In this document: positions 1-24,034 of the stretch, in pieces
How the letters are laid out: the number at the start of each line of letters is the position of its first letter
How positions within the stretch are numbered: position 1 is the first letter of the stretch
NCBI GenBank assembly: GCA_030037185.1
Contig: JASHRR010000227.1
Coordinates: forward strand, 1-25,402
Direction of reading: 5' to 3'
DNA: 25,402 nt
DNA from: Xanthobacteraceae bacterium
Lineage (GTDB): Bacteria; Pseudomonadota; Alphaproteobacteria; Rhizobiales; Xanthobacteraceae
Notes under the pieces: model-generated
What the model was told of the DNA's origin: nothing
Database searches by the model: none
What the model saw: the letters and a program-made list of their open reading frames with translations, nothing else
Position numbers and translations under genes: made by a program

Positions 1-1544
1 GTCCTGCGCGCGCCTACCACAGCATTCTGTTCCTTGACCCCAGCGATCGCGCTGCCGATGACGGAGTGGAAGCGCCTCATTTCTTCCCTGACCTTAATTG
101 CGATCAAATTGTCGATGCCGTTACGGCCGGTAGAGAGGAATACAACTTAAAGCCTTTCTTTTACGCCCCTCTACGCCGGGTCGACGCGATCAACTACCGT
201 CACGAGGTCATGCAAGATCTCGAAGATACGGCGATCCTTGAGCGAGTGCGTTCTTTCGCGCAACAAATGCGCAAGATGCGTGATTATCTCGATCATCTAC
301 AAAAGCTCTATTACAAGGAGCAAAAGCAGGCCTGGTTCTTGGATGCCATTGGCGTTTATTGCGACGCGATTAATGAATTTGCGACCGGCCTTTCCGATAC
401 GGCTATCAAATCGCGTGGTTTTTTAGGCTTTCGAGACTACGTGACGGATTACGCCCGTTCTTCTCCGTTCAACGCACTCTTGTTGAAGACAAATAAACTA
501 AAGGCTGACTTGGCGACGGTCAAGTATTGCGTGCTCATTAGAGGCGACAAGTTCACAGTGCTCAAATATGAGGACGAGCATGACTACAGCAAGGAGGTCG
601 ATGAGACGTTTGAAAAATTCAAGCAAGGCGCTGCCAAAGATTACAGGGTAAGATTTTCCGAGAACAACGATATGAATCACATCGAAGTAAAGATACTGGA
701 ATTCGTTGCCAACTTGCACCCCGAGGTGTTCCGTCCGCTTGAAGACTATTGCACTATGAACGCTAATTATCTCGACGAGGCGGTGGCGAATTTTGATCGC
801 GAGATCCAGTTTTACCTTGCATATCTCGAATACACCCAAGTTCTACTCCACGCCGGGTTAAGTTTTTGCTATCCACAGGTATCTGATACAAATAAACAAA
901 TCTACGATTACGACGGATTCGATATCGTTTTAGCGCACAAACTAGTCAAGCAAAATGACCATGTAATCTGCAACGATTTTTACTTGAGGACTAAGGACCG
1001 AATATTGGTCGTATCCGGGCCTAATCAGGGAGGTAAGACGACCTTCGCTCGCTCCTTAGGACAGTTACATTATCTAGCAAGTATTGGTTGTCCTGTTCCT
1101 GGCAGCAAAGCACAACTGTTACTTTTCGACAAGCTATTCACGCATTTTGAAAAAGAAGAGAAAGTCGAGAATCTCCGGGGCAAACTGGAAGATGATCTGC
1201 TGAGAATTCATTATATCATTGAGCGGGCCACGTCGCGGTCGATCATCATCATGAATGAAATCTTTACCTCGACGACGATTCAAGATGAGACCTTCTTGAG
1301 CAAGAAAGTGATGGACCAAATATCGGCGCTTGACGTAGTGTGCGTGTGGGTCACTTTCGTCGACGAACTGGCTTCCTACGGGCCCCAGACCGTCTCTATG
1401 GTCAGCACGGTCGATCCTGACAATCCCGCGTTGCGAACGTTCAAGATTGTGAGGCGGCCTGCGGATGGTCTCGCCTACGCGATGGCGATTGCTCAGAAAT
1501 ATCGGTTGACCCACGACGCGATCACGGAGCGGATCAAGTCATGA
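1..1544 (+). CDS. MutS-like ATPase, first of a tandem pair (5' end outside window)
   Basis: The reading frame is open from the left edge, so the GTG at 66 is an internal Val and the true start lies upstream. The visible part is about 513 residues. It has the MutS lever/clamp helical region followed by the ABC-type MutS ATPase domain. Walker A is GPNQGGKTTF (bases 1017-1046) and the Walker B region is SIIIMNEIFTST (about 1240-1275). MutS normally has Asp-Glu in Walker B; here it is Asn-Glu. No mismatch-recognition domain is visible, although the missing N-terminus is not in view. The family is related to mismatch-repair MutS, but its substrate is unknown. The stop overlaps the next start (ATGA at 1541), so the two are probably translationally coupled and may form a heterodimer (inference). 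By eye the gene is richer in A+T than its partner. Confidence 0.9.
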   Translation, partial: PARAYHSILFLDPSDRAADDGVEAPHFFPDLNCDQIVDAVTAGREEYNLKPFFYAPLRRVDAINYRHEVMQDLEDTAILERVRSFAQQMRKMRDYLDHLQKLYYKEQKQAWFLDAIGVYCDAINEFATGLSDTAIKSRGFLGFRDYVTDYARSSPFNALLLKTNKLKADLATVKYCVLIRGDKFTVLKYEDEHDYSKEVDETFEKFKQGAAKDYRVRFSENNDMNHIEVKILEFVANLHPEVFRPLEDYCTMNANYLDEAVANFDREIQFYLAYLEYTQVLLHAGLSFCYPQVSDTNKQIYDYDGFDIVLAHKLVKQNDHVICNDFYLRTKDRILVVSGPNQGGKTTFARSLGQLHYLASIGCPVPGSKAQLLLFDKLFTHFEKEEKVENLRGKLEDDLLRIHYIIERATSRSIIIMNEIFTSTTIQDETFLSKKVMDQISALDVVCVWVTFVDELASYGPQTVSMVSTVDPDNPALRTFKIVRRPADGLAYAMAIAQKYRLTHDAITERIKS

Positions 1545-3148
1545 AAGCGTTGCTGATGTACAGAGACCGGGATTTTGATTCCAGCCAGCTGTTGTCCCGG
1601 CGGGAGAGGGAGCTGCGTTATCGGAGCGATAAGCAAGAAGCCCTGCGGTTGGAACAGCTTTTGCCCTGGAATGAAGGCGCGATGAGGCAAGACCTCGGGC
1701 TGGATGCTGTGTTGGATGCGATGGCGCTCAACGATAATTTCCTGCTTGAGGCGGCAAAGGTTGCGCTCTTGTCTGGTGTAACCGATCTCAGCACGATTTT
1801 GTATCGCCAGTGTGTTCTCGTGGACTGTATCAACAATGCGCAGACCGTCAGGCATATGTATCAACTCGCTGTTGAAGCGATAAATGGGGCCAGGAAGGTC
1901 TATTGGAGCTCCTTTCTCCAATGCCCCACCAGCACACTTCAGAGCGGAGTGGAGACACTTCGGCTGTTTGTTGCGTTGTTGAGGAGGCTGAGGGCCGTCG
2001 CCGATCAACATGCGGAGAAATTCGAGTCAGAGGGTTTCTCGAGACTGTTTGCCATGTTGAAGGAGGAGCTCATCGACGACTATTTCGCGAGGGTCGAGTC
2101 ACATTTGAGTCGGCTCAAATTGCGGCGCGGCGTGCTGATCAGCGCAGAGCTGGGGAAAGGCAACAAGGGCAGAAGCTACGTCCTTCGCAAGCCGCACGAA
2201 GACAACCGAAGTTGGATGACGCGGCTTCTCGCTGAAAAGCCGCCCTCGTACACCTTCCAACTCCACCCTCGAGATGAGCCGGGCGCCCGCGCGCTGTCGG
2301 CGCTGAATGACAGAGGGGTTAATCTTGTTGCCAACGCACTCGCTCAGTCGACAGATCATATTCTCAGCTTCTTCCAAATGTTGCGGGCGGAACTGGCGTT
2401 TTACATCGGCTGTTTGAATTTGCGCGCGCGCCTTGAGCAATTGGCCGAACCGACATGCCTTCCCATGCCAGCACCAGTCGGCCAACGAAAGTTCTCCTCG
2501 ACTGGCCTGTACGATGTGTCGCTCGCCTTGAGCATGGGACGGAAGGTCGTCGGCAACAATGTCAATGCCGACGGCAAGGACATCATTGTCATCACCGGGG
2601 CCAATACGGGCGGCAAGTCGACGTTTCTGCGAAGCGTAGGTCTTGCGCACCTCATGATGCAGGCCGGCATGTTCGTGCCCGCCGAGTCTTTCTCGTCGGA
2701 AGTCTGCAATGGGCTTTTCACTCACTATAAGCGTGAAGAAGATACCGCAATGGAGAGTGGAAAATGGGACGAGGAACTCAGTCGGATGAGCGAGATTGTC
2801 GATCACCTCAAGCCTAATTCGATAGTCCTATTCAACGAATCGTTTGCGTCCACGAACGAAAGGGAAGGATCTGAAATCGCCCGTCAAATCGTCGGAGCGC
2901 TCTTGAATAAGCATGTCAAGGTGCTGTTCGTCACGCATTTATATCACTTTGCGCAAGCCGTTTTCGACCAGAAGATGGCCAACGCGACCTTCCTCAGGGC
3001 GGAGCGGCGCCCCGATGGAAGCCGGCCCTTCAAGTTGGCTGAAGCAAAGCCACTGCAAACAAGCTATGGCGAGGACCTCTATAGAGCAATCTTTGTCGGG
3101 GATGAAAAATGCCGGGATGCAAAGCAAGGGATTCAAGAGATGATCTAG
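1541..3148 (+). CDS. MutS-like ATPase, second of the tandem pair
   Basis: This is a 535-residue protein starting at the ATG that overlaps the previous stop. It opens with MKALLMYRDRDFD, a short N-terminus lacking the MutS mismatch-binding domain. A long helical core follows, then the ATPase domain with Walker A GANTGGKSTFLRS (residues 353-365). The Walker B/signature stretch SIVLFNESFAST is at about residues 427-438, again with Asn where MutS has Asp. A later VLFVTHLYHF stretch contains the conserved ATPase-domain histidine. It is a paralogue of the upstream gene and probably its ATPase partner, acting on nucleic acid in the cytoplasm. MutS genes are among the reported targets of crcB-motif (fluoride) RNAs. 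Any leader for this operon would lie left of the window. The function in fluoride or DNA stress is inference. Confidence 0.9.
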   Translation: MKALLMYRDRDFDSSQLLSRRERELRYRSDKQEALRLEQLLPWNEGAMRQDLGLDAVLDAMALNDNFLLEAAKVALLSGVTDLSTILYRQCVLVDCINNAQTVRHMYQLAVEAINGARKVYWSSFLQCPTSTLQSGVETLRLFVALLRRLRAVADQHAEKFESEGFSRLFAMLKEELIDDYFARVESHLSRLKLRRGVLISAELGKGNKGRSYVLRKPHEDNRSWMTRLLAEKPPSYTFQLHPRDEPGARALSALNDRGVNLVANALAQSTDHILSFFQMLRAELAFYIGCLNLRARLEQLAEPTCLPMPAPVGQRKFSSTGLYDVSLALSMGRKVVGNNVNADGKDIIVITGANTGGKSTFLRSVGLAHLMMQAGMFVPAESFSSEVCNGLFTHYKREEDTAMESGKWDEELSRMSEIVDHLKPNSIVLFNESFASTNEREGSEIARQIVGALLNKHVKVLFVTHLYHFAQAVFDQKMANATFLRAERRPDGSRPFKLAEAKPLQTSYGEDLYRAIFVGDEKCRDAKQGIQEMI

Positions 3149-3155
3149 GGTTTAA

Positions 3156-3268
3156 AACTTAATCGGACGCCTCGCCAGGCGTTACAACGAACTCGCGCGA
3201 AACTTCTTCTCCACGGTCTGTCTCGCCGCTTTTGTCTCGTTCTGGCTATAGCTGGTTGAGTCTGGATC
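3156..3268 (+). pseudogene. C-terminal remnant of an IS5-type transposase with probable IS end
   Basis: One frame reads GRLARRYNELARNFF, then a hydrophobic tail ending SFWL and a stop at about 3250. This is the kind of C-terminus seen in IS5-superfamily DDE transposases (R-Y-x-x-x-A-x-x-F-L then hydrophobic residues). The sequence after the stop, GAGTCTGGATCC, resembles the terminal repeat of such elements. It begins a few bases after the mutS-like stop, so an insertion beside the operon followed by deletion is likely. The recognition rests on a short motif only. Confidence 0.5.
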
Positions 3269-3269
3269 C

Positions 3270-4300
3270 TGCCATTCTAGTCATGATCGACCGTTCATAT
3301 GAAGGACCCAAATAGGACAGCAGAATCACAGTCAGGCCGCGCAGGCCTGTTCATGCTGGGATCGCCGATCTCGTGAAGCGGCATCGACAACTGGCGGGTA
3401 AGCCACCTTTATGATCGCGTTCTCCACCACCCGGGGGTTCTGGAAGCCTGATGAAATCTCGGCGAATGAACATTATCGGGTGTCGCCGAGCCCGTTTGCG
3501 GTGCTGCTGGCGGCGCTACGCGAACCACTGCTCGGCCATCTGCCCGCCGCCTCGACTGGGGCAGGCTGGAGCGGCTTGCAACGAGCCGATGGGGAGGAAC
3601 AGGAGGTCGAGGCCGTGCCCGAGGTTCAGTCGCTCCGAAATATCGCAATCCGGAAAATCCCAGTGAGACTTGGGCTGGGCGCGGACTAAAACGACGCTGA
3701 CTGGCAGCTGCGCTGAAATCCGGCAAGAAGCTTGAGGATTTCTGCATCGCTGCGTGGGAAACAAGCGCCGGGCAGCGCCCAAGAACGTCCGCCGGAAATA
3801 GCCTCGTTTGTCAGCAGCGGCCCTCTGATTGCGGAGTAAAATGGCGTTTCTTAAACGCAGCCCAAAGTCCCAAGTGGGCCAAAGCCAAAGACATCGCCGG
3901 CCGATCGGAACGGCCTCAGGCGCCCAGCTGGGAGGATCGAGAAGCTCGAGGTGAAATCGAGCCGTCTACCCTGACCAGCCCGGCGCGTAGGACGTAGTAC
4001 GTACGGAACATCGAAAAGCGGTTGCGGTCTGCACTCGGGACGTTCGCCGCAGGCTGCGGTATCTTCTGGTTCATGGGCAGCGCCATTATTGGAATTCTAT
4101 ACTCTCTCGCTGCCGGCGGTCGTAACATTCTGCATCGTCACTCAGGTCTTGGCCGTGCCGCTATTTATCTGGGTCGGTCGTCGCACCCCGACGAGCTAGT
4201 CCATCTGTCACGCAGGCAAAGGCAGGCGGCCTGAATCAGGCACGGAGATATCGTCAGCAGCAATGAAAACTTGGGCACCGGAGAGCTGGGTCTCGAGGCC
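3270..4300. other. Non-coding or decayed stretch
   Basis: No frame gives a recognisable protein. Several short open frames overlap on both strands, none with a convincing ribosome binding site. At about 4070-4190 the plus strand, read across a frame change, gives hydrophobic stretches (GCGIFWFMGSAIIGILYSLA, then AVVTFCIVTQVLAVPLFIWV). This may be a fragment of a membrane transporter that cannot be assigned. Confidence 0.4.
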
Positions 4301-4307
4301 GAGTCCG

Positions 4308-4734
4308 TCACTTCACCAGCAGCACTGGGCATTGAGGGAGCTGCAAAATCCGATTGGCTCGGCTCCCCCATCAGCCGCTCATATATGGCCGAACGGCCTC
4401 GTGATCCGATGACGAGCAAGTCGACCTTAAGCTCGGTTGCGAGCTCGATGATGTCACGTACCGGGTGTCGCGCGAGGATATGGGGGTGAAGCTCGACATG
4501 GTTTCGTTCCGCCGCGGTGCGGGCGCGTTGGAGAACTTTGTGGAAGCGTCGGGCTGCGGTGCCGGTTTCCTGTCGAATCTCTTCGATAAATTCGGGATAT
4601 AATCGATCTCTTCCACCCGGACCATGTGGATGATCAGAATTGTTCTGCCGCGCTATCGCGAGTGCTGCCCCGAATGCATGGAACGCTGGTTCGGAACCGC
4701 CATTGGCGTGCAGGATTTTGCGAGTGAGCGACAC
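4308..4734 (-). pseudogene. Universal stress protein (UspA family), frameshifted
   Basis: From a GTG at 4734 the minus strand reads SLTRKILHANGGSEPAFHAF, then FIEEIRQETGTAARRF, HPVRDIIELATELKVDLLVIG and SAIYERLMG, and ends CPVLLVK-stop at 4308. This order is that of a UspA domain, including the G-x(2)-G-x(9)-G-like nucleotide loop region. Three frame changes are needed: near 4630, near 4595 (which restores the frame), and near 4365, so that the authentic end lies in another frame. The nucleotide-loop region is also imperfect (GSRGRSAIY). It lies directly downstream of a minus-strand fluoride-riboswitch-like leader; uspA is a reported target of that RNA class. Probably once a fluoride-induced stress protein. 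Confidence 0.82.
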
Positions 4735-4847
4735 AGCACCAAGCTCCCGCGGTTGGCTAGCAATGCATCCGGAGCTGCCATTCGCGCCTGCAGCGGGGAC
4801 AATATGTTGTGAAGTGAACACCTGACAATTGTGCGGGGTTAGCCATC

Positions 4848-4870
4848 GCAGCGGATGATCACTCCGCTGC
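4848..4870 (-). promoter_or_regulatory. Hairpin in the leader of the uspA pseudogene; possible expression platform
   Basis: GCAGCGGA and TCCGCTGC form a perfect 8-bp stem with a 7-nt loop. In the minus-strand direction it comes 11 nt after the riboswitch-like aptamer and about 110 nt before the uspA pseudogene start. There is no U-run after it, so it is not a standard intrinsic terminator. A switch platform or a simple structural hairpin are both possible. Confidence 0.45.
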
Positions 4871-4881
4871 CCTTGCCAGAA

Positions 4882-4932
4882 GCAGCAGGAGTCATCAGCT
4901 TATTTGGCGGTTTCGGGGGACTCCCTTCCAGC
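4882..4932 (-). promoter_or_regulatory. Fluoride riboswitch (crcB motif), degenerate, ahead of the uspA pseudogene
   Basis: Read on the minus strand the order is GGAAGGGAGTCCCCC, then AAACCGCC, a 6-nt loop, then GCTGATGACTCCTGC. This matches the crcB-motif layout: a 5' GG..CC stem enclosing a GGAGT segment, an AACCGC joiner, a small hairpin, then GCTGATGACTCCT. GGAGT and ACTCC can pair. The 5' stem is weaker than in the copy at 5397. The class is established as a fluoride sensor; this copy is identified by pattern only. Confidence 0.72.
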
Positions 4933-5375
4933 GTTAATCATCAGTTTCATTGGGCACAAGAGCGGTTGCGAAGAATATGCCCTGCTCGCACTGCGGGTAC
5001 GTAGAGCCCGTTATTCTCTTCCTTCGGCGCTTCAGGGGAGATCGCCAATCGCGTGTTAACACGAGCCCAGCGATGATCACCAGCGCCGCCTCTCGTCGCG
5101 GTTTTGGGCCGGGTGAAAATGGACCACCTTTCCCTCACCCGCGGGCAAACGGGGGCCGGTGGTGGCGTGCGACCTGTTCTGAAGCCTATTGCTTCCAAGC
5201 ACTCTTCGCGTGCACGTTCCCAGGCCAGGCACTTGTCGATCCCTGCCCGCCCCGCCTTCATCAACCGGAGTGCGGCCGGCAGTATATTGAATTCCGCTCA
5301 CGGGAACGATTTTAGACCCCAACTGGTTGGGTAATGGTGCGCGAGCGCGCTCTGGCTTGCTTGTTGCGCGCCTGA
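4933..5375. other. Intergenic stretch between two divergent riboswitch-like leaders
   Basis: Short open frames on both strands show no recognisable domain or ribosome binding site. The stretch should carry the promoters for the minus-strand leader at 4932 and the plus-strand leader at 5397. No strong sigma-70 match is evident. Confidence 0.4.
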
Positions 5376-5389
5376 AGCTTATGTAAGCT
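5376..5389. promoter_or_regulatory. Perfect inverted repeat just upstream of the GTPase riboswitch
   Basis: AGCTTA-TG-TAAGCT is a perfect 6-bp inverted repeat with a 2-bp centre, seven bases before the riboswitch stem. It overlaps the place where a -10 box would be expected (TATGTA). It could be an operator or part of the promoter. A chance palindrome cannot be excluded. Confidence 0.35.
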
Positions 5390-5396
5390 GATCCTA

Positions 5397-5443
5397 GGGG
5401 ATGGAGTGCCCCCGTAAAACCGCCGCAAGGCTGATGGCTCCTA
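5397..5443 (+). promoter_or_regulatory. Fluoride riboswitch (crcB motif) ahead of the dynamin-like gene
   Basis: This is the best of three copies. GGGG-ATGGAGTGC-CCCC forms the 5' hairpin, followed by AAAACCGCC-GCAA-GGC (a stem with a GNRA tetraloop) and CTGATGGCTCCTAC. The GGAG in the first loop pairs with the late CTCC. The invariant pieces (GATGG, AACCGC, GCTGATG, CTCCTAC) agree with the known fluoride-sensing aptamer. A short ACCGC/GCGGT hairpin (5443-5462) follows. The GTPase start is about 135 nt downstream. By analogy it turns expression on when fluoride accumulates. Confidence 0.87.
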
Positions 5444-5579
5444 CCGCGTGATATCTGGCGGTTCGGGGCGTTCTTGCACCCGCATTCTCCCGAATCCGGA
5501 CGTCGCGCGCGCTGTGGCAGGAAGCCAAGAGAAGCGAGCGCGGGACGTGACGGCGCTAGGCGAAGCGAGGCAACGATCG

Positions 5580-7553
5580 ATGGGGACCTCTGTCAAAGAG
5601 GGCCGGGGTTCGGCCCAAGACGATCTGAATCTGCAAGGCAATGAGCGACCGATCGCATTGACTGAGTTCGTCAAGACGGACCGTTGCTCGGAAGTAACGA
5701 CAGACGATACCGACGGGAGGATCAAGCACACACGTTCCCTCTGCCTTTCTGCGTGTTTGGATCACGCAGCAGCCACCCTTAGAAATGCGCCTACGGAGAA
5801 CGCATCGCTCATTGCCCGATTTGACTCGCTGCGCGAACGTCTTCGGCACAGTCAGCTTCAGTTGGCCGTGCTTGGTCAATTCAAGCGCGGCAAGAGCACC
5901 TTCATCAACGCACTGCTCGGTGCTCCGCTCCTGCCAATGGCGGTCGTGCCGCTGACGGCGGTGCCCATCTTTATTTCGTGGCGCTCGTCGCCGTCTGTCT
6001 GTGTTCGTTTCGCCAACGATCGTCCCGCGGAGGAGTTCCCGGCGGATAACCCTGATGCAATTAGGGAATTTCTATTTGGCTTTGTCGCAGAGGAGGCAAA
6101 CCCGAAAAATGGGCTTCGCGTCGATCGCGTCGAGGTCTTTTATCCAGCACCCATACTTGCCGACAGTACTGTGTTGATTGACACCCCTGGCGTCGGTTCC
6201 ACCTTTCGCCACAATACCGAAGCGGCGCTCCAGGTTCTCGCGGAATGCGATGCGGCGGTCTTTGTCGTGTCGCCCGACCCGCCGATCACTGAAACCGAAC
6301 TCGACTATCTGCGCCACCTCGACTCGAAGGTGGCCAAGATTCTGTTCGTAATGAATAAAGCTGACTATGTGCGGCTTGAGGAGCGGGCGCGCCTCATCGA
6401 CTTCTTACGCGATGTATTGAAACAGAATGGTCTTTGGTCGTCGAGCTCGATTATTTACAGCGTCTCGGCGCGGGATGGGTTGGATGGCAAGCGTCTCGGC
6501 AATCGGAATGAAATCAACTCAAGTGGCCTTGGCGCAATCGAGGACTATCTGAGACATTATTTGGCCGCGGAGAAGACCGAAACGCTGACGCGGGCAATTT
6601 CAAGAAAGGCAGAAGACATTCTCGCCGAAACAGCGGCATCACTCGATCTGCGGATAAAGACACTTGAAATGCCGCTAGACGAGTTGTCTTCGAAGTCGAA
6701 GCTGTTCGAGCAGGCGCTGACGTCTATCGAAGGACAGAGACGGACAGTAGACGATCTCCTGGCCGGCGAGCAACGTCGCTTGCTCGTGGAGTTGAGGTCC
6801 CGAGCGGACAGACTGTATGAGGACGTGTGCGCCAAATTGTCGAAGGTCATTGATCGCGAACTCCCTGGAGCCTGGTCACCAAGGTGGATCGAGGGGGTAA
6901 AAAGTGTGCTTGGGGCTGCCATTGAGACAGTCTTTGATGCAGCTCGTGAGCGTTTCATTGAGTCTTTCGCGGCGGCGGCGAATTCTGCGTTTTCCGCTCA
7001 TGAGCGGCGTCTCGGAGAATTGATCAATGACGTACGAAGAGCTGCAGCCGACATCTTCGAGACCGAGTTCTACCGGAGTTCTGAGGACAGCTCGTTTGAA
7101 TTGACCGATGATCCCTATTGGGTGACTCGGCATGTTCAAGAAACATTGATGCCGGACCCAAGCAAGGTCATAGACCGTCTGCTGCCTTGGGAGCAGCGTC
7201 GAGCGCGCCTGCGCGCGCGCCTGATCAGACAAACGAACGAGCTGGTGCGACGTAATGTTGGCAATCTTCATTGGGCAATTCTTCAAAGCCTGAACGACAC
7301 TTTTCGGAAGGCCAGATCACAGTTCGAAGAGCGGCTCGACGATGCAATGAGCGCAACAAAGGCAGTGATCCTCGCAACATTGGAACGCCGACGTGCTCGG
7401 GCTTTTGAAGTTGAATCTGAGATCGTCCGTCTCGCCGCGCTCAAGGCGGCTTTAGTCGGCTATCACACCGAGATCACTGCGGCGGCGTGCCGCGACGGCG
7501 TATCTGGGGCGGAGGACCTGTGCTGCAGCGACATTTCGAGCGCAAGATGTTGA
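5580..7553 (+). CDS. Dynamin-like large GTPase under a fluoride riboswitch
   Basis: The protein is 657 residues from the ATG at 5580, chosen because GAGG lies about 10 nt upstream and because the frame before it runs back into the riboswitch. The G domain has the P-loop GQFKRGKST (99-107), switch Thr in VVPLTAVP, DTPG (201-204) and NKAD (259-262). A long helical region of about 370 residues follows, with many charged heptad-like stretches, as in bacterial dynamin-like proteins. Such proteins bind and remodel membranes with GTP hydrolysis. No transmembrane hairpin is obvious, so membrane contact is probably peripheral. Placement behind a fluoride riboswitch suggests a role in envelope repair or protection under fluoride stress (inference). 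A second riboswitch-like element starts 33 nt after the stop. Confidence 0.9.
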   Translation: MGTSVKEGRGSAQDDLNLQGNERPIALTEFVKTDRCSEVTTDDTDGRIKHTRSLCLSACLDHAAATLRNAPTENASLIARFDSLRERLRHSQLQLAVLGQFKRGKSTFINALLGAPLLPMAVVPLTAVPIFISWRSSPSVCVRFANDRPAEEFPADNPDAIREFLFGFVAEEANPKNGLRVDRVEVFYPAPILADSTVLIDTPGVGSTFRHNTEAALQVLAECDAAVFVVSPDPPITETELDYLRHLDSKVAKILFVMNKADYVRLEERARLIDFLRDVLKQNGLWSSSSIIYSVSARDGLDGKRLGNRNEINSSGLGAIEDYLRHYLAAEKTETLTRAISRKAEDILAETAASLDLRIKTLEMPLDELSSKSKLFEQALTSIEGQRRTVDDLLAGEQRRLLVELRSRADRLYEDVCAKLSKVIDRELPGAWSPRWIEGVKSVLGAAIETVFDAARERFIESFAAAANSAFSAHERRLGELINDVRRAAADIFETEFYRSSEDSSFELTDDPYWVTRHVQETLMPDPSKVIDRLLPWEQRRARLRARLIRQTNELVRRNVGNLHWAILQSLNDTFRKARSQFEERLDDAMSATKAVILATLERRRARAFEVESEIVRLAALKAALVGYHTEITAAACRDGVSGAEDLCCSDISSARC

Positions 7554-7585
7554 GCCGACAGGGCATCGCCCTCCTAAAAAACAGA

Positions 7586-7632
7586 GGGGATGGAGTACCG
7601 CCTAGAATGCCGCGAGGCTGATGACTCCTGGC
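7586..7632 (+). promoter_or_regulatory. Fluoride riboswitch (crcB motif), third copy
   Basis: GGGGATGGAGTACCGCC, then a GCC-GCGA-GGC stem with a GNRA loop, then TGATGACTCCTGG. The order and spacing match the copy at 5397. The 5' stem carries one mismatch (GGGG against CGCC) and the AACCGC joiner has drifted to AATGCCGC, so ligand binding may be weakened. It stands between the GTPase gene and a frameshifted small gene. Confidence 0.76.
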
Positions 7633-7733
7633 GTGGGGCGCCGCTGTGCGCGGTTGTAACGGAAAGGATCGGCATAGAAAAACCAAGAGCAAAGTCCACG
7701 GCGAGCGATTGGACCAACAAAAATTCTAACCGC

Positions 7734-7911
7734 ATGCGTGCCAGACCTCGGTACAAACCCGCCAAGAATCTTGGCACACGCGAGCCCGACTTGCTCATGC
7801 TTCTGGGCGAGCCCGAGGTCCGTCTCCTCATGCGGGGCCGATAGTGTCGACCAACACGAGATGCTGGAGACGTTTGACGTGATCAGAGTTGCAACTGCGA
7901 AGCAATTCTGA
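7734..7911 (+). pseudogene. Small conserved protein, frameshifted, behind riboswitch copy 3
   Basis: From the ATG at 7734 one frame reads RYKPAKNLGTREPDLLMLL, then EPEVRLLMR, and stops at 7844. A one-base frame change there gives the continuation ADSVDQHEMLETFDV and a natural stop at 7911. The joined product would be about 59 residues. I recall similar short proteins in rhizobia but know no function. An extra G in the GGGG run near 7835 is the simplest cause. Confidence 0.6.
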
Positions 7912-7951
7912 AACAAGCGAGACCAAGCCAACAGGAGAATCCATCGACCGA

Positions 7952-8362
7952 CGAATATGCCCCGGCGTTGGCATCATGCTAGTTAACGATAAGTATTCAT
8001 CGGCCGGCGGGCAGATGTGCCACACGACGCATGGCAGATGCCGCAGGGCGGCATGGACGCGGGGGAGACGCCTCGCCAGGCGGCGCTCCGTGAGTTGAAA
8101 GCGGAGATCGGGACGGACAACGCAGAGATCATTGCGGAAAGCCGAGGTTGGCTCTATTACGACCTTGGCTCTATTACGACCTGCCTCAGAAGCTCGCTCG
8201 TACGGCGGACACTGCAAAGCCCAGCGGCAAAAATGGTTCATGATGCTCTTCAAAGGCGGATCGCGATATTGATCTTGCCGGTGAACATCCCGAGTTCAAC
8301 GCCTGGCGGTGGGTTCCGCTCAGGAGGTCAGCGAGCATGCTGCTTCTTTTCAAATGCCAGCT
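7952..8362 (+). pseudogene. NUDIX hydrolase (RppH-type RNA pyrophosphohydrolase) pseudogene
   Basis: Pieces in order: [27 protein letters not shown] and [11 protein letters not shown], covering the Nudix box G-x5-E-x7-R-E-x2-E-E-x-G with Lys replacing one Glu; [39 protein letters not shown]. These match RppH/NudH proteins, which remove pyrophosphate from 5'-triphosphate mRNA ends. At least three frame breaks are needed, including one made by an exact 17-bp tandem duplication at 8148-8181. About a third of the RppH region before the Nudix box is shortened. Non-functional. Confidence 0.85.
8148..8181 (+). repeat. Exact 17-bp tandem duplication inside the NUDIX pseudogene
   Basis: TTGGCTCTATTACGACC occurs at 8148-8164 and again at 8165-8181 with no mismatch. 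Because 17 is not a multiple of three it shifts the reading frame. The perfect match suggests the duplication is recent. Confidence 0.95.
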
Positions 8363-8465
8363 CGGCGGCAGGCTACCGCCAGGGCAGGCGGGGGTGGAAT
8401 GGCGCAGGGCGATGAACGGCACCGCGCCCGCGCATTGCAGGCGATAGGCGATGAGTGTATTGGTT

Positions 8466-8482
8466 GAGTCCCTTATAAAGGG
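8466..8482. promoter_or_regulatory. Small inverted repeat upstream of the lectin-like gene
   Basis: CCCTT-ATA-AAGGG lies about 25 nt upstream of the start codon at 8504, close to a GGAGG ribosome binding site (8491-8495). It could be a promoter element or a short operator. No clear -35/-10 pair is visible. Confidence 0.3.
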
Positions 8483-8503
8483 GAATAAAGGGAGGAAACC
8501 TCA

Positions 8504-9208
8504 ATGACGAGGACGATCGTTGTTACCACCGTTGCCACAGCACTTCTGGGCTCGGCGGCCATCTTTGCGCAGGCTCAGCAACCCCAACAGCCGACCGCGA
8601 GTTTCTTCGTTGCTGAAAACCCGAATGGCACGGGCAATCTTGGTGGCCTCGCAGGCGCAGACCAGATATGCCAAACACAGGCCCAGGCTTTGGGCGGAGC
8701 GGCCGCCGCAAAAACGTGGCACGCCTATCTCAGCCAAGAACAGCGGGGTAACACCCCGAAGGTCAATGCGCGCGGCCGCATCGGCCAAGGCCCCTGGTAC
8801 AACGTCAAGGGACAGTTGATCGCCAGCAGCGTCGCCGATCTCCATGGCGATCAGCAACGCGATCGCAACAACATTCAGGCCGCGACCGCGCTGGATGTGA
8901 AGGGCGAGCAGATTCCGGGCAACGTGCACGACATCTTGACCGGTTCGGACTCCGACGGCCGTGCGTTCACCGACGGCTACGACCACACCTGCAACAACTG
9001 GACTTCGGATGGCATGACCCTTCCGCAGGCGGCAAACGCCAACGCGGCCGTGCCGCCGGACCGCGCGCGGGCAATGCTCGGGCATAGCAATCGGTCGGGT
9101 GGCCAGAACACGTCGTGGAATGCCGCACATATGAGCCAAGGCTGCAGCAAGCAGGCGTTTATCAACACCGGCGGCGCAGGCAAGCTTTACTGCTTCGCCA
9201 TTAACTGA
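8504..9208 (+). CDS. Exported lectin-like protein (C-type-lectin/endostatin-like fold)
   Basis: This is a 234-residue protein. A signal peptide (residues 1-24, cleavage likely after AQA) is followed by FFVAENPNGTGNLGGLAGADQICQ. The signature of A-D-x-x-C near the start, TWHAYLS, then GRAFTDGYDHTCNNWTSDG and a C-terminal WNAAHMSQGCSKQA...YCFA is that of periplasmic or secreted proteins with a collagen NC10/endostatin-like C-type lectin fold. Six cysteines are present in the mature part, consistent with disulfides outside the cytoplasm. The start is fixed by GGAGG eight bases upstream. A strong intrinsic terminator follows, so it is a single-gene unit. Ligand unknown. Confidence 0.85.
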   Translation: MTRTIVVTTVATALLGSAAIFAQAQQPQQPTASFFVAENPNGTGNLGGLAGADQICQTQAQALGGAAAAKTWHAYLSQEQRGNTPKVNARGRIGQGPWYNVKGQLIASSVADLHGDQQRDRNNIQAATALDVKGEQIPGNVHDILTGSDSDGRAFTDGYDHTCNNWTSDGMTLPQAANANAAVPPDRARAMLGHSNRSGGQNTSWNAAHMSQGCSKQAFINTGGAGKLYCFAIN

Positions 9209-9236
9209 CGCGAATGATTCACCCAGCGGCAATCAA

Positions 9237-9267
9237 GGGGCGGCCTTCGGGTCGCCCCGCTTGTTTT
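9237..9267 (+). terminator. Intrinsic terminator of the lectin-like gene
   Basis: GGGGCGGCC pairs with GGTCGCCCC (one G-U) around a TTCG tetraloop at 9246-9249. The stem is followed by GCTTGTTTT. It sits 28 nt after the stop codon. Confidence 0.88.
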
Positions 9268-9302
9268 CAGGGTCACCGCCGGCTGCCCGTCGTTGCCAAC
9301 CT

Positions 9303-9520
9303 CTAAACGCCTGGCAAAGCCTTCGCGTCCTCCGGCTTGGAGAAGCAGAACACCACGAAGTCGCTGTCATCGCGGCCCAGAGAGTGGGTGAAGGGCGTTG
9401 CCGATAGAAAGCCGGCAGCGCAAAAATATCACCTCACTGTTCTTAAAGACCCCGCACCCCTTCGGCCGGAAGCGCGACGTGGTGCGGCCATTTGCGCTTG
9501 CGATCGTCGCGGGTGATTTC
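9303..9520 (-). pseudogene. Small conserved rhizobial-type protein, frameshifted
   Basis: The minus strand reads RNGEITRDDRKRKWPHHVAL, PAEGVRGL, then after a frame change KNSEVIF, then after another CAAGFLSATPFTHSLG and DDSDFVVFCFSKPEDAKA. The joined product would be about 70 residues. Short proteins with KWPHHVALPAE and DFVVFCFxKPEDA are familiar from Bradyrhizobium genomes, with no known function. Two frameshifts and a lost C-terminus mark this copy as dead. Confidence 0.6.
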
Positions 9521-9645
9521 GCCGTTGCGTGGTCATTGCCGTATCGCCGGACGCAGCGAACGTGATAGCCGCCCCGTCATCTCGGCGCTAGACGGCCGTC
9601 CTTTTTTGGTCTTATTGCCGCCTTGGATGGGGCGACCGAGGGACG

Positions 9646-9677
9646 ACTCAATTGATTTAGAACTCAACTGATTTAAG
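9646..9677 (+). repeat. Imperfect 16-bp tandem repeat at the ribosome-binding region
   Basis: ACTCAATTGATTTAGA (9646-9661) and ACTCAACTGATTTAAG (9662-9677) differ at three positions. The second unit ends next to the AAGGGG Shine-Dalgarno-like run before the hydrolase start at 9689. It could be a regulator-binding pair or a local duplication. Confidence 0.6.
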
Positions 9678-9688
9678 GGGAATGCGCT

Positions 9689-10693
9689 ATGCAGCAACTT
9701 CGTTTTACGTCCAAGCCGCTGTCCAGGCGTTCGGTCCTCGGGTCTGCTGCGGCGACTGTAATGACCGCTCCTGTGCTTGCGCAGGAATGCCGCCTTGGAC
9801 CGCCAATGCATCACAAGGGTCCGACCGTTTTTATGGAGTATGATCAATTCGAGCTCGATGCAGCCTATGACCAGGACTATTACGAACCACTGTGGGCCCA
9901 GGTTTATGCGCGACTTGCCACCGATAGCGAGGCCGTTCGCGCTCGCCTCGGCGTTCCTCGCCGCGTCTCGTATGGGCCGAGCGAAATCGAAAAGCTGGAT
10001 ATCTATCGTACCGATCGCCCTGAGGCACCGATTTTTATCTTCATCCACGGCGGAGCTTGGATCAGCGGATCGGCCGCGGAGTACGGATATGCGGCCGAGA
10101 TGTTCGTTAAGGCCGGGGCGCATTACGTGGTTCCAGATTTCAGCTCGGTCAAGGATGTAGGTGGGGATCTTGGAGTGATGGCCGCGCAAGTGCGCCGCGC
10201 CATTGCGTGGATTTACAAGAATGCCGCGACGTTCGACGGCGATCCTGACCGCATATATGTCGGCGGTCACTCTTCCGGCGGGCATCTTTGCGGCGTCACC
10301 CTCGTTACCGATTGGGAAAAAGAGTTCGGCGTCCCTGGCACGATCCTAAAGGGCGGGCTTTGTATCAGCGGAATGTACGAACTCACTCCCGTGCGGCTGT
10401 CATGGCGTCGCACCTATGTAAACTTTACCGATGCAATGGTAGATGCCATGAGTTCGCAGCGTCACATCGACAAACTCAACGCGCCGATTGTCGTAAGCTA
10501 TGGCAGCTTGGAGACGCCCGAATTCCAGCGTCAAAACCGTGATTTCGCTGCCGCCATCAAGGGCGCTGGTAAGCCCGTGCAGCTTATCCAGGGACTGAAC
10601 TACACCCACGTAACATTGTGCGAATCTTTAGGCCATCCGTACGGTCCCTGTGGCCGGGCCGCGCTTGCGATGATGAAGCTCGCGCCTGCGTAG
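9689..10693 (+). CDS. Tat-exported alpha/beta hydrolase (arylformamidase/esterase-like)
   Basis: This is a 334-residue protein. The N-terminus has a twin-arginine motif (SRRSVLG, Arg13-Arg14), a hydrophobic stretch and a likely cleavage after LAQ, so it is probably exported folded to the periplasm. The hydrolase core has the oxyanion-hole motif HGGAW (120-124), the nucleophile elbow GHSSGG (193-198, nucleophile Ser195) and a late His307 in NYTHVT as the likely catalytic histidine. HGGAW with GHSSGG is typical of the kynurenine formamidase/BD-FAE esterase group. Export argues against a role in cytoplasmic tryptophan breakdown. AAGGGG upstream serves as a modest ribosome binding site. No operon partner. 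Confidence 0.87.
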   Translation: MQQLRFTSKPLSRRSVLGSAAATVMTAPVLAQECRLGPPMHHKGPTVFMEYDQFELDAAYDQDYYEPLWAQVYARLATDSEAVRARLGVPRRVSYGPSEIEKLDIYRTDRPEAPIFIFIHGGAWISGSAAEYGYAAEMFVKAGAHYVVPDFSSVKDVGGDLGVMAAQVRRAIAWIYKNAATFDGDPDRIYVGGHSSGGHLCGVTLVTDWEKEFGVPGTILKGGLCISGMYELTPVRLSWRRTYVNFTDAMVDAMSSQRHIDKLNAPIVVSYGSLETPEFQRQNRDFAAAIKGAGKPVQLIQGLNYTHVTLCESLGHPYGPCGRAALAMMKLAPA

Positions 10694-10848
10694 TCCGGCG
10701 GCTAATGCGGCGCCTATGGCTGGTCCCCTCGCGCCCCCCCTGCAACCCGCCATCCGGCGCCGTTTTCTTGTTGGTCGAATGATCACTACGGCTATTTCGT
10801 CCTTGCGGCGCGTCATCGTCGGCGCGCGCCGCTTGAGGCTCGTCGAGT
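10694..10848. other. Short intergenic stretch
   Basis: No gene or clear terminator after the hydrolase stop. A minus-strand open frame (reading MTRRKDEIAVVIIRPTRKRR) has no recognisable family. Confidence 0.3.
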
Positions 10849-11036
10849 CCAAATCTCGCTTCGCTCCCGCCGCACGGCGATGCTGGCGGGATTGCCGGCC
10901 TTGATCCAGACGCCCCACAGGCCGGATTGATAGGTGCTATGCGCTTGAAGACGATGCCCTCGGCGCCAAGCCGGCACGCATGGGCGAACACGGTTGCCCC
11001 ATAGGAGCGGATCGAATGGCTGTCTTGCCAACCGGT
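10849..11036 (-). pseudogene. ATP-dependent DNA ligase fragment (LigD-like adenylation domain)
   Basis: The minus strand reads GWQDSHSIRS, then YGATVFAHACRLGAEGIVFK, then after one frame change TYQSGLWGVWIKAGNPASIA and RERSEIW. This covers motif IV (EGIVxKR) and motif V (WIKxxNP) of ATP-dependent ligases. The catalytic-lysine part is not found upstream. Only about 60 residues remain. It is unrelated in position to the intact ligase gene at 22227. Confidence 0.75.
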
Positions 11037-11229
11037 CGAGACTCGTTTTCGATTTGGCGGGCACGGCCATTCCCAACCTTCCGATGGGTCGGCTCCGGCA
11101 TCTGGCCCTCGACCGCGATCGATAGTTTTGCGCCCGAGCTTACTCGGATCTCTGGCGTCCGCCAGGGAAGAGGTTGGCGAGGTTCGCGTCCGCTTAGCCC
11201 AAGCGGATGCCATCGTCGACGCCTGAGCT

Positions 11230-11371
11230 TACTTGTGCAATGATACCGATCTGTTGCTGGTTGTCGAAATAGCCCCAGAGTTGACAGGTCGCGAACATGC
11301 GCTCTCTGAACAATCACCGATCCTCCTCGGGCGTGTGAAGTCCGGCAAGGGCCGGTAATGCATGGTCGAAA
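11230..11371 (-). pseudogene. GNAT acetyltransferase N-terminal fragment
   Basis: The minus strand reads FDHALPALAGLHTPEEDR, an in-frame stop, then LFRERMFATCQLWGYFDNQQ, QIGIIA. This resembles the first part of GNAT acetyltransferases (a short N-terminal helix, then the R-E-x-x-F..W..x-G-x-I-A strands). The acetyl-CoA binding motif is missing. Truncated and interrupted. Confidence 0.55.
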
Positions 11372-11857
11372 GACGCCCGATGGACGGCAGCAGCCCGATC
11401 CCTCCTCCAATCCGAGCCGCCGAAGCATTCAGCGTTCCGATAACCGATGTCCGTCGAAGAATTGTACTGATCTGATCAGCGTCAGCTCGCCAGCGAGGCC
11501 AGAATCCAGTTGGCTCGTTCGGCGACGCTCGCTTTGGGCAGCGATATCATAGCCCGGTAGCGGATATACCTGACGAGGCGACCGTATTCCGCAACCGCTT
11601 CGGCGAGACCATGCCGTCATTCCTCGTCTGACTCGTCTCGTCGGCGGCCTCTACGGTGCCTATCACAGCGATATGTCCGAGGGACGAGCTCGGCCGCGGC
11701 GCAAGCGCAATCGTGATGGCTTACTGCGCCGGATAGCGGCAGCGCAGAAACAATCCGCGGAGTTGCTGAAGGAGGCGAAGGGCTGAAGTGACCTACGTGT
11801 ACAGCGCCCGTCAACACCTGCTATGAACGTAACCATTGCAGAGAGCGGCGAATTGCC
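11372..11857. other. Decayed stretch, unassigned
   Basis: At about 11480-11610 one minus-strand frame reads LAEAVAEYGRLVRYIRYRAM, followed by ERANWILASLAS. The AEYGRLV segment recalls Tn3-family transposase C-termini, but it is too short to call. At 11673-11786 the plus strand has a 37-codon Arg/Lys-rich frame without a visible ribosome binding site. Confidence 0.3.
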
Positions 11858-12137
11858 ATGGAGACGATTTTTGTCTCGATCATTGTTGGGGTTATTGCGG
11901 TCGTGGGGCTCGCGGCGGCGGCGATAGCACGAGAGAGCTGCGCAGCGGACGCGGTGAAAGGTATCGGTGAGGCCAGCTCCGCGCTAATCGGGGCCACGGG
12001 CGCTTGTTACGTGGAAGAGGGCCAAGCCCTTTCCAGAGGGTGTCACAAAGAGCATCGAAAGCATGCATGCGGCGATTACCATTCCCTTCAAGGATGAGAA
12101 GGACGCGGAGGAGGTGACGAACGCGAAGCGGCTCTAG
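11858..12137 (+). pseudogene. Small membrane-anchored protein, apparently frameshifted
   Basis: From the ATG at 11858 the product begins METIFVSIIVGVIAVVGLA, a single hydrophobic segment, and continues ESCAADAVKGIGEASSALIG. The frame stops at 12097. Near 12025 another frame takes over with FPEGVTKSIESMHAAITIPF and KDEKDAEEVTNAKRL, ending at 12137. The sequence before the start (TGAACGTAAC...CAGAGAG, 11824) closely resembles that before the Rap1a-like gene (12279). An intact 79-residue protein is the alternative reading. Family unknown. Confidence 0.4.
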
Positions 12138-12307
12138 TTTCGCATCCCAAAAGAGCGGGATGATCCGAGCAATCCGACGCGGATTCAATCGGCAAACAAT
12201 GATCTGGGAGCGATGGCCGTCCAGGACGGCGCCTTAGCCTGCGATGCGGCTGGTAGGTACGGCGATCAACACGTGGGGTGAACGTAACATTACAGGGAGG
12301 AAGAGCC

Positions 12308-12700
12308 ATGAAAGCGATACTGACAGGCGCCGTGCTGGCGCTGGCGCTCACGACGGCTGGGGCGGCGGAGGATGGCGCAAGCGCAAATGCGATGCTGCTG
12401 ACGTGCAAGGCAGCCGCCAGCGACAAGCCTCAGGCGGTGAACGCTGCCGCCGCCTCTTACTGTAACGGCATGCTCGACATGTTGGCCTTCATGGCGTCCT
12501 ATCTGAATGACCGCCCCTGGTTGTGCATGGATTTCCCGAAAGGCGTCACGGGCCAGGAGGCAGCTAAGGTCGTCGTGCGTTATGCGGAGACCCACGCAGA
12601 ACACATGCACGAGCCGCTTATGTGGCTCGCCGTTCTGGCGTTGCACGACGCTTGGCCATGTCTATCCACCGATTTCGACCAGCGCTTTAACGGCAAGTGA
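12308..12700 (+). CDS. Rap1a/Tai-family exported protein
   Basis: The ATG at 12308 is chosen over an earlier in-frame GTG (12278) because AGGGAGGAAG lies just before it. The product is 130 residues with a signal peptide of about 20 residues (MKAILTGAVLALALTTAGAA). The mature part shows the Rap1a/Tai pattern: ANAMLLTCKAA, ASYCNGMLD, W-L-C-M-D-F-P-K-G-V-T-G-Q-E, a helix (VVVRYAETHAEHMHEP) and a final ALHDAWPC. Four cysteines suggest two disulfides. Founding members are periplasmic immunity proteins against type VI amidase effectors. No effector gene is nearby, and many family members are orphans, so immunity is not implied here. Confidence 0.8.
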   Translation: MKAILTGAVLALALTTAGAAEDGASANAMLLTCKAAASDKPQAVNAAAASYCNGMLDMLAFMASYLNDRPWLCMDFPKGVTGQEAAKVVVRYAETHAEHMHEPLMWLAVLALHDAWPCLSTDFDQRFNGK

Positions 12701-18171: not shown

Positions 18172-18831
18172 ATGGGACTTCAGACCTATCGGGCAAAGCG
18201 CGATTTCTGCCGGACGCCCGAACCACGCGGCAGCATGACGCCCTCGACCGAGGGTCATTTCTTTGTCGTTCAAAAGCACGCCGCGCGCCGGCTTCATTAT
18301 GACTTCCGGCTGGAACTCGACGGTGTCCTCAAAAGCTGGGCGGTGACCCGGGGCCCGAGTCTCGTTTCGGGCGAGAAGCATCTCGCGGTCGAGGTCGAGG
18401 ATCATCCGATCGAATATGGTACATTCGAAGGAACGATACCGAAGGATCAATACGGCGGGGGCACTGTCATCATATGGGATCGCGGCAGCTGGGAGCCAGA
18501 GGGAGACCCACACAAGGGGCTCGCCAAGGGACATCTGGATTTCCGCCTCCACGGTGAAAAACTCAAAGGGCGCTGGCATCTCGTACGGATGGCGCCACCG
18601 CGCGGCGCGACGCGGAAGAATTGGCTGCTGATCAAGGCGAGGGACGAGGAGGCGCGTGACCCGTCCGATCCCAACATCCTGGTCGAGGAGCCGCAATCGG
18701 TCGTCTCCGGCCGCATAATCGAGGAGGTCGGCGAAGGCGATGAGGTCGGAAATTCCTTATCAGGCCGGCAACGACGAAGCGACGGAAAGGTAGCGGCTTC
18801 GATCAAGGCTGCACCGAGGCGTCGGAGGTAG
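18172..18831 (+). CDS. LigD 3'-phosphoesterase (PE) domain protein
   Basis: This is a 219-residue protein with AGGTGA upstream of the ATG. It is a complete PE domain. His36, His42, Asp44, Arg46, His78 and Tyr82 fall at the spacing of the catalytic and metal-binding residues of Pseudomonas LigD PE (His42, His48, Asp50, Arg52, His84, Tyr88), shifted by six throughout. PE trims 3' ends during non-homologous end joining. A basic tail (KAAPRRRR) follows the domain. In rhizobia this N-terminal domain is usually fused to ligase and polymerase domains, so this is either a stand-alone PE or the stump of a truncated LigD. The downstream DNA is a P-type ATPase pseudogene on the other strand. Confidence 0.88.
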   Translation: MGLQTYRAKRDFCRTPEPRGSMTPSTEGHFFVVQKHAARRLHYDFRLELDGVLKSWAVTRGPSLVSGEKHLAVEVEDHPIEYGTFEGTIPKDQYGGGTVIIWDRGSWEPEGDPHKGLAKGHLDFRLHGEKLKGRWHLVRMAPPRGATRKNWLLIKARDEEARDPSDPNILVEEPQSVVSGRIIEEVGEGDEVGNSLSGRQRRSDGKVAASIKAAPRRRR

Positions 18832-23150: not shown

Positions 23151-24034
23151 ACTCCCCGCCGGGCTTGATCTTCTCCCACCTAAACAAAATCTTCTGGCCG
23201 GACGAGAAGTACACCAAGGGCGATATCATCGAGTACTACCGCGAGATCGCGCCGGTGATACTCCCGTATCTTAAAGATCGTCCCGAGTCACTCAACCGGC
23301 ACCCCGACGGCATCGCCGGCCCTGGCTTCTATCAGAAGAACGTCGGGCGCGAGAGCCTGCCCTCCTTCATCGACACCTGCGCGATAAAGGCGAAAACAAC
23401 CAAAAAGCACGTGCGATATGTGGTGTGCAACAACACAGAGACCTTGCTGTGGCTCGCGAATTTCGGCTGTATTGAGATGAATCCCTGGGCTTCGCGTATA
23501 GGCTCACTTGATCGGCCCGACTTTTTGACCATTGATCTTGATCCGCACGGCCGGAGCTTTGACGACGTGGTTACTGTCGCCCTGACGCTGCATCGGATGC
23601 TCAACTCGCTCAAGGTAAAGAACTTCGTCAAAACATCAGGCAAGACGGGCATGCACGTGATGGTCCCGCTCGCAGCGAAGTACGATTACGAGGTAGTGCG
23701 TGAATTTTCGCGCCGGCTGGTGGCAACCGTGGAGCAAGAGATCCCAGATCTGGCGACTACGGAGCAGCGCATCGCCAAGCGACACGGCAGGATTTATCTC
23801 GACATGGCGCGCAACGGCCAGGCCCAGACGGTCGCAGCGCCGTATTCTCTGCGCCCCTACCCGGGAGCCAGTGTGTCAGCTCCCCTCGAATGGAAAGAGG
23901 TGAGAAAAGGCCTGCATCCCTCTCAGTTCACGCTCAAGAGCATCTTCCCGCGTCTCAAGGAAAAAGGAGACCTGATGAAAGGTCTTTTAGGCCGAGGTAT
24001 TGATCTAAAAAGGTCGTCGGCGTTGCTATCCTAG
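23147..24034 (+). CDS. LigD polymerase (primase-like, POL) domain protein
   Basis: The ATG at 23147 overlaps the ligase stop (ATGA), giving 295 residues; an in-frame start at 23015 lies inside the ligase gene. It is an archaeo-eukaryotic primase-type polymerase. Asp130-Leu-Asp132 (TIDLDPH) are the metal ligands, SGKTGMHV carries the conserved His170, and APYSLRPYPGASVSAPLEW is the conserved C-terminal block. In end joining this domain fills gaps and adds ribonucleotides. RPESLNRHPDGI and GFYQKNVG are features I associate with Bacteroidota-type LigD, in contrast to the CPQGR..CFFQKH form usual in rhizobia. No Ku gene is present in the window. Confidence 0.92.
   Translation: MNSPPGLIFSHLNKIFWPDEKYTKGDIIEYYREIAPVILPYLKDRPESLNRHPDGIAGPGFYQKNVGRESLPSFIDTCAIKAKTTKKHVRYVVCNNTETLLWLANFGCIEMNPWASRIGSLDRPDFLTIDLDPHGRSFDDVVTVALTLHRMLNSLKVKNFVKTSGKTGMHVMVPLAAKYDYEVVREFSRRLVATVEQEIPDLATTEQRIAKRHGRIYLDMARNGQAQTVAAPYSLRPYPGASVSAPLEWKEVRKGLHPSQFTLKSIFPRLKEKGDLMKGLLGRGIDLKRSSALLS

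Follow-up and report, generated by a model that had tools for sequence, protein, structure and literature searches.

Among the described systems, those closest to the locus reported here are the crcB motif (RF01734) and the FRM operon of Enterobacter cloacae. The reported targets of the crcB motif include mutS, K+ or Cl- transport and formate hydrogen lyase (PMC2864571), and a 2024 review names exporters, Na+/H+ antiporters, pyrophosphatase, enolase, haloacid-dehalogenase-fold proteins and formate hydrogen lyase, its main text containing no word that starts with GTPase, dynamin or mutS (PMC11139923). The FRM operon (ppaC-uspA-eno-gpmA-crcB-orf5249) is an experimentally studied fluoride island headed by a riboswitch, and the enzymes enolase and pyrophosphatase are inhibited by fluoride (PMC5533749). 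The locus described in this work lies in a stretch of 25,402 nucleotides (hereafter the window) of a Xanthobacteraceae bacterium (assembly GCA_030037185.1, contig JASHRR010000227.1, positions 1 to 25,402, forward strand). Judging from its sequence, it is very probably part of a multi-gene fluoride-response island, decayed in places, in which one aptamer (B) would place an intact GTPase of the BDLP/IniA type under induction by fluoride, the protein then presumably acting at the membrane.

The likeness to the crcB motif covers the sequence, the two stems, the conserved joiner and the pseudoknot, as well as mutS and formate hydrogen lyase as targets (PMC2864571); what differs is the dynamin-like GTPase as a target and the number of aptamers, which reaches 23 on the contig of one relative. 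With the E. cloacae operon the locus shares the organization as a riboswitch-headed multigene island with Usp and fluoride-inhibited enzymes; however, one riboswitch is reported for that operon, whereas here the GTPase and both gene remnants (usp and rppH) each have a leader of their own, and the main text of the FRM paper holds no word starting with dynamin or mutS (PMC5533749). A dynamin as target of the fluoride riboswitch was not found in open-licence PMC papers, although a table entry in subscription papers or supplements is possible. The window is a fragment, decayed in part, of a fluoride-response island of a type already described; its GTPase target class was not found in open-licence print.

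The second group of related systems are the bacterial dynamins, such as BDLP (Nostoc), IniA (mycobacteria) and Cj-DLP1/2, which resemble the window protein in combining a GTPase with a long helical neck/trunk. Bacterial dynamins often occur as operon pairs in which one partner tethers membranes (PMC6104087), and a role in membrane surveillance has been described for DynA of Bacillus (PMC8844932). The presence of two dynamins per island in several relatives of the window recalls the Cj-DLP1/2 pair (PMC6104087). In contrast to BDLP, IniA and Cj-DLP1/2, the proteins considered here are preceded by a fluoride-aptamer leader and some of them have an RppH-type neighbour or fusion.

A preliminary description of the window had proposed three fluoride-riboswitch-like leaders around a dynamin-like GTPase. 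The corresponding features are listed below, with scores for RF01734 and for R1, a covariance model built on an alignment (A3) of 36 fluoride aptamers from other genomes and none from the window.

4879..4938, minus strand: aptamer A, heading a usp (universal stress protein) remnant; RF01734 31.3 bits, E 3.6e-5; R1 40.5 bits, E 9.1e-11
5388..5450, plus strand: aptamer B, heading the GTPase; RF01734 52.0 bits, E 6.3e-12; R1 60.7 bits, E 8.6e-17
5451..5579, plus strand: probable expression platform, from the end of aptamer B up to the GTPase; supported by the minimum-energy fold and by pairing of the aptamer 3' strand (z -1.54)
5580..7553, plus strand: dynamin-like GTPase, ATG start, 657 amino acids, intact; Pfam Dynamin_N 84.9 bits (cut-off 27; reading frame 5448-7553)
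7577..7637, plus strand: aptamer C, heading an rppH remnant; RF01734 28.4 bits, E 3.4e-4; R1 50.7 bits, E 8.1e-14

The window was compared with all of Rfam, in which the gathering score of RF01734 is 34 bits. The preliminary description had assigned the three leaders to the crcB motif, and by this measure B (52.0 bits), which ranks top of the three in both models, passes the gathering score, A and C falling below it. With R1, run on the window with filters off, the three elements obtained 60.7, 50.7 and 40.5 bits and the runner-up site 7.9 bits; thus, despite their Rfam scores, A and C are strongly family-like by the model of their relatives. In the 36 outside aptamers, 98.0% of the cells in the two stems and the pseudoknot (as named by the analyst) were paired, and two-sided changes numbered 17 against a shuffled mean of 2.1. 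Based on the Rfam and R1 scores and on the paired, covarying stems and pseudoknot, all three elements are fluoride aptamers, far above chance, and this part of the preliminary description is confirmed. The word "around" applies in part: B lies directly ahead of the GTPase, but A is on the minus strand, facing the Usp gene away from the GTPase, and C fronts the rppH remnant. Rfam matches in the window to eeev_FSE, CRISPR-DR33 and Six3os1_3 were far under their cut-offs and were taken as chance.

The GTPase has the same length (657 amino acids) as its relative P0001, and relatives share 80-88% identity with it. Its AlphaFold model (predicted local distance difference test score, pLDDT, 78.1; predicted template modelling score, pTM, 0.66) gave BDLP (2j69, E 1.3e-21) as the top Foldseek match and IniA (6j72, E 1.7e-19) as the second, identity to the chains of BDLP, IniA and Cj-DLP1/2 being 13-20% in the Foldseek alignments, and the predicted structure has after the G domain a long helical neck/trunk as in BDLP and IniA. 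Residues 502-504 and 510-525, located between two long helices, have a pLDDT under 50 and form a candidate paddle region; P512, Y513 and W514 are invariant among 60 sequences. As far as sequence and predicted structure tell, the window GTPase is a bacterial dynamin-like protein of the BDLP/IniA/mitofusin type. In a tree of 23 dynamins, it groups with that of genome G023 (100/100) in clade A, clade B comprises the second dynamins of several genomes together with that of Lichenicola, and the Burkholderia dynamins stand apart on a long branch, their placement being unsure.

The linkage between aptamer and GTPase recurs in relatives. A scan of 39 loci (596 kb) with R1 returned 105 matches at E <= 0.05; 99 of these were used along with the window's three, all distinct and located on 27 contigs or records, leaving out four duplicates of overlapping loci and the two weakest (20.7 and 17.2 bits), of which the 17.2-bit match, in locus L015, reaches 42.2 bits with the Rfam model. 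Every complete dynamin open reading frame (ORF), the window's included, has a same-strand aptamer within 811 nucleotides upstream (14 of 14), so that the proposal of a GTPase under a fluoride-type leader is upheld not only by aptamer B but by the same linkage in related loci. Within 1000 nucleotides upstream, a same-strand aptamer precedes 14 of 14 dynamins versus 72 of 346 other ORFs (p 8e-10, a value that, like the other p-value given below, overstates independence, the 14 ORFs being related and the loci having been fetched for dynamins, MutS genes or aptamers); the upstream placement of the aptamer was itself not a selection criterion for the loci. This count covers mechanically called ORFs of the 33 loci with a kept aptamer, excluding those under 150 amino acids or open at a locus end, among them a truncated clade-A copy of G235. 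A second dynamin of genome G259, missed by the ORF picker, has a same-strand aptamer about 190 nucleotides before its first Met (L037 2613-2672). The dynamins of Lichenicola, Burkholderia multivorans and L002 also stand outside the count; that of B. multivorans passes and the other two fail.

The gene order varies among these loci. In a Xanthobacteraceae metagenome-assembled genome (L001, 53% identity) two aptamers lie back to back, one facing a hydrogenlyase/NADH-dehydrogenase-like cluster (named from annotated plasmid relatives in the same blastp groups) and the other heading the dynamin, which a small ORF precedes. In Burkholderia cenocepacia and B. multivorans, islands on plasmids show the order aptamer, small ORF, dynamin, accompanied by a MutS pair, NUDIX, enolase, pyrophosphatase (ppa), DUF190 and a hydrogenlyase-like cluster. 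An intervening small ORF was noted at L034 11168-11791, L001 4593-5207 and L011 17247-17963; two representatives of such ORFs (L034 11168-11791 and L040 10408-11163) gave no Pfam match, and they may encode a partner protein.

At the genome level, dynamins matching at E <= 1e-30 were found in 8 of 296 genomes of one family, that of the L001 genome, while samples of the class, the order and the phylum yielded G001 alone (1/385, 1/397 and 1/398, respectively). The fluoride aptamer is present in 134 of the 296 genomes of the family draw, and the eight with a dynamin hold 5, 17, 6, 4, 6, 9, 13 and 17 RF01734 aptamers, numbers that are lower bounds since 17 candidates were scored per genome with stricter filters. 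At least four aptamers occur in 8 of 8 dynamin genomes versus 4 of 288 others (Fisher p 3.7e-13).

How aptamer B could act on the GTPase was addressed through the stretch that follows it. In the first 110 nucleotides of leader B, the minimum-energy fold pairs the aptamer joiner AACCGCC with GGCGGTT further downstream; a search for an intrinsic terminator behind aptamer B listed none at 5451..5579. Aptamer A has a strong anti-aptamer, its 3' strand pairing with the following stretch at z -4.07. Among the 95 of 102 aptamers with a recognisable pseudoknot-strand motif and a long enough flank, the pseudoknot strand pairs with the following stretch beyond shuffled sequence (mean z -2.77; 81 of 95 below -1), and strands swapped between loci bind more weakly on average (-16.1 versus -19.9 kcal/mol for own pairs), with 18% of the swaps reaching the own-pair mean. 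This anti-aptamer pairing is consistent with an ON switch, the gene being freed when the ligand binds, as was proposed for terminator-bearing cases of the crcB motif by Weinberg et al. (PMC2864571). The lack of an anti-aptamer at C is in keeping with its decay. The leader can also be followed in a close relative, P0002, encoded on another contig and 88% identical to the window GTPase, whose N-terminal extension is a translation of the aptamer. As far as RGWSAPV this extension corresponds to frame +2 of window 5138-5416, and from NRRKADGSYRV onwards to frame +3 of window 5184-5780; judging from the protein, the contig of P0002 seems to carry this leader too, differing from the window by an indel in the joiner.

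From this evidence we infer fluoride control of the GTPase and propose the following mechanism. Fluoride (with Mg2+) would stabilise the pseudoknot of the aptamer, and the stabilised pseudoknot would keep the 3' strand or the joiner from pairing with the downstream anti-aptamer strand, turning expression on. Once induced, the GTPase would act at the membrane under fluoride/hydrogen fluoride (HF) and acid stress, either by itself or, as several relatives suggest, together with a partner dynamin; a need for membrane maintenance is plausible because of HF entry and acidification. In intact islands, the partners RppH, MutS, enolase and pyrophosphatase would meanwhile replace or repair fluoride-blocked targets.

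That the segment belongs to a fluoride-response island, as the preliminary description had it, is supported by the three aptamers of the window and by the relatives' islands with the same linkage. The largest of the latter was found on contig C49 of G259 (L072, L073, L037, L038 and L074), whose 73,244 bases contain 23 aptamers placed before or next to a wide variety of genes, and would represent an unusually large fluoride regulon. Pfam matches on representatives identified, at or near aptamers, dynamins, FtsH, an AAA ATPase, the cyclopropane-fatty-acid-synthase family, IlvD, MFS, CLC with DUF190, NUDIX and phosphoglycerate-mutase-like proteins, while MutS pairs, enolase, antiporter and Usp were recognized by blastp grouping with annotated plasmid genes. 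CrcB is present in some related islands and CLC-DUF190 in another. In several islands the clade-B dynamin is followed by a HEAT-repeat protein (L036 7707-8660, L035 5336-6205 and L040 7643-8467, the first called by Pfam and the other two by blastp grouping), and the aptamer that closely follows the dynamin of G023 leads into an ORF of the enolase group, not rppH. Neighbouring aptamers within 600 nucleotides of each other are divergent in 20 of 22 pairs, 17 of these 20 being 87-198 nucleotides apart; the A/B pair of the window (450 nucleotides) is one of the 20. This back-to-back arrangement suggests shared bidirectional promoter regions. Close aptamer pairs were observed at L001, L032, L034, L035, L036, L037/L038, L041, L074, L075, L076, L077, L079, L080 and in the window (4879-5450).

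A NUDIX protein of the RppH type accompanies several of these dynamins. In G099, the mechanically called dynamin ORF (L033 9366-11222) overlaps an RppH-type ORF (11219-11911); next come a phosphoglycerate-mutase-like gene of opposite orientation, an aptamer and a MutS pair. In P0037, P0054 and P0095 the dynamin is fused to a C-terminal NUDIX domain, and that of P0037, the one fusion examined, scored 194 bits with the NCBIfam RNA pyrophosphohydrolase model (cut-off 116); no relatives of P0037 were found in viral contigs. RppH of Escherichia coli is blocked by F-, which in crystals replaces the reactive water (PMC7144940), and RppH therefore fits the pattern of fluoride-inhibited enzymes.

The remaining genes on the aptamer side of the window are the following.

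3..1544, plus strand: MutS_V-domain protein 1 of a tandem pair; Pfam MutS_V 65.1 bits; 5' end cut by the window edge
1541..3148, plus strand: MutS_V-domain protein 2; Pfam MutS_V 83.5 bits; 4-nucleotide overlap with the first
4311..4728, minus strand: usp remnant; Pfam Usp 50.0 bits on ORF 4165-4821
7774..8363, plus strand: rppH-type NUDIX remnant; tblastn with the C-termini of P0037/P0054/P0095 and with relatives' NUDIX proteins

The tandem MutS-like genes that had been described are indeed present, MutS_V being the only domain over its Pfam cut-off in both proteins. A canonical MutS identity was rejected for the pair, since the NCBIfam MutS equivalog gave 77.3 (5'-cut gene) and 77.0 bits versus a cut-off of 480. 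In relatives, MutS genes are often led by aptamers; in the window the first MutS gene is cut by the sequence end, and any leader of the pair would be situated beyond the left edge. Among 12 MutS loci outside the window, an aptamer lies within 330 nucleotides upstream in eight and 1.0-1.9 kb upstream in two, and the other two have no upstream aptamer in the sequenced stretch; at one of the latter, L073 of G259, the aptamer-headed second dynamin is directly upstream on the same strand. At a further locus, L015, no aptamer was found ahead of the MutS genes at gathering score. The absence of an exporter from view also holds for the window, where no relative of CrcB (four queries), CLC (one) or DUF190 (one) was found by tblastn at E <= 0.01; this tells little, however, since the window breaks off within the first MutS gene and CrcB or CLC-DUF190 does occur in related islands. 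Neither enolase (one query) nor inorganic pyrophosphatase (one) nor cation:proton antiporter (two) has a relative in the window by the same search, and no plasmid DNA near-identical to window 1-12000 was found.

Further along the window, parts of LigD (3'-phosphoesterase, ATP ligase and primase-polymerase) are found on three separate ORFs, 18172-18831, 22227-23150 and 23015-24034, and ORFs 8504-9208 and 12278-12700 have weak Pfam matches, endostatin/collagen-NC10-like and Rap1a-like, respectively.

Several observations, besides the overstated p-values, weigh against a fluoride-induced GTPase in a multi-gene island. Part of the locus is decaying, as both genes behind A and C are broken: tblastn with relatives' usp genes needs frames -2 and -3, and the matches to rppH cross frames +1, +2 and +3 with stops, its open part (8017-8412) reaching 64.7 bits with the NCBIfam RNA pyrophosphohydrolase model (cut-off 116). 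Alternatively, these frame breaks could be assembly errors. Aptamers A and C are under the RF01734 gathering score (31.3 and 28.4 versus 34 bits), the platform of B is moderate (z -1.54) and that of C unsupported (z +1.26, no anti-aptamer pairing found). Elsewhere, the plasmid dynamin of Lichenicola has no aptamer of its own and adjoins an aptamer-crcB-usp unit on the other strand; that of L002, a Deltaproteobacteria metagenome-assembled genome with three aptamers on other contigs, has only a 15.2-bit match almost 7 kb downstream; and four more distant plasmid dynamin loci (L094-L097) gave no aptamer at E <= 0.5 with R1.

The main rival explanation holds that the riboswitch merely supplies more of a fluoride-sensitive GTPase, as proposed for enolase, pyrophosphatase and RppH, and that the protein has no special protective job. 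Dynamin-type GTP hydrolysis is trapped by fluoro-metal transition-state mimics. Related islands hold enolase and pyrophosphatase (PMC5533749) and RppH (PMC7144940), all of them inhibited by fluoride, along with phosphoglycerate-mutase-like and IlvD-type proteins. Replacement of a blocked target is nevertheless considered rather unlikely: the dynamin is not housekeeping, being rare (8 of 296 genomes in the family, and G001 only in the wider samples), and its eight genomes are rich in aptamers, so that a basal enzyme to replace is not obvious, as far as dynamins matched to E 1e-30 indicate. The same islands invite a different reading of the protein, in which fluoride-induced dynamins, often paired (clade A, some with an RppH-type partner, and clade B, several with a HEAT-repeat neighbour), would constitute a dedicated membrane-maintenance arm, a mitofusin/IniA-like machine induced by riboswitches at very high fluoride/HF in islands of up to more than 20 aptamers. 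This broader proposal is put forward tentatively, as a possibility that falls somewhat short of even chances.

Decay of the locus could also mean that the aptamers are left-overs, that the GTPase is now expressed independently and that aptamer B has no importance. The broken usp and rppH frames, the Rfam scores of A and C and the missing anti-aptamer of C would agree with such a relic; yet B exceeds the Rfam cut-off and ranks first among the three with either model, the GTPase is intact, P0002 carries a translated aptamer just upstream of its own GTPase, matching two window frames, and the frame breaks could come from assembly, all of which makes this improbable. It is even harder to credit that the protein is a passenger, a LeoABC/DynA-like GTPase that serves in anti-phage or envelope defence and travels on the same mobile islands. 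Dynamin islands do occur on plasmids, and with PADLOC the window GTPase matched LeoA (68.4 bits) and LeoBC (42.1 bits); the LeoA match is, however, partial (profile positions 103-400 of 559), and a passenger would not be expected to follow an aptamer directly in all of the 14 complete ORFs. The resemblance to the LeoABC dynamin system lies in these partial profile matches, in contrast to which the window has one dynamin, other neighbours and fluoride leaders; a single clade-B query found no second dynamin in it, the Leo profiles having been run on the GTPase only.

The reported target range of the fluoride riboswitch has so far comprised exporters, ion/pH transporters, DNA repair (mutS), formate hydrogen lyase and fluoride-inhibited enzymes (PMC2864571, PMC11139923). 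If fluoride induction of the GTPase holds true, a membrane-remodelling-type GTPase that is repeatedly and directly controlled would indicate that membrane damage or GTPase trapping is part of fluoride toxicity, and bacterial dynamins would gain a defined inducer and hence a condition in which to test them. The related islands, in which a single contig can carry as many as 23 aptamers, are natural collections of what fluoride hurts.

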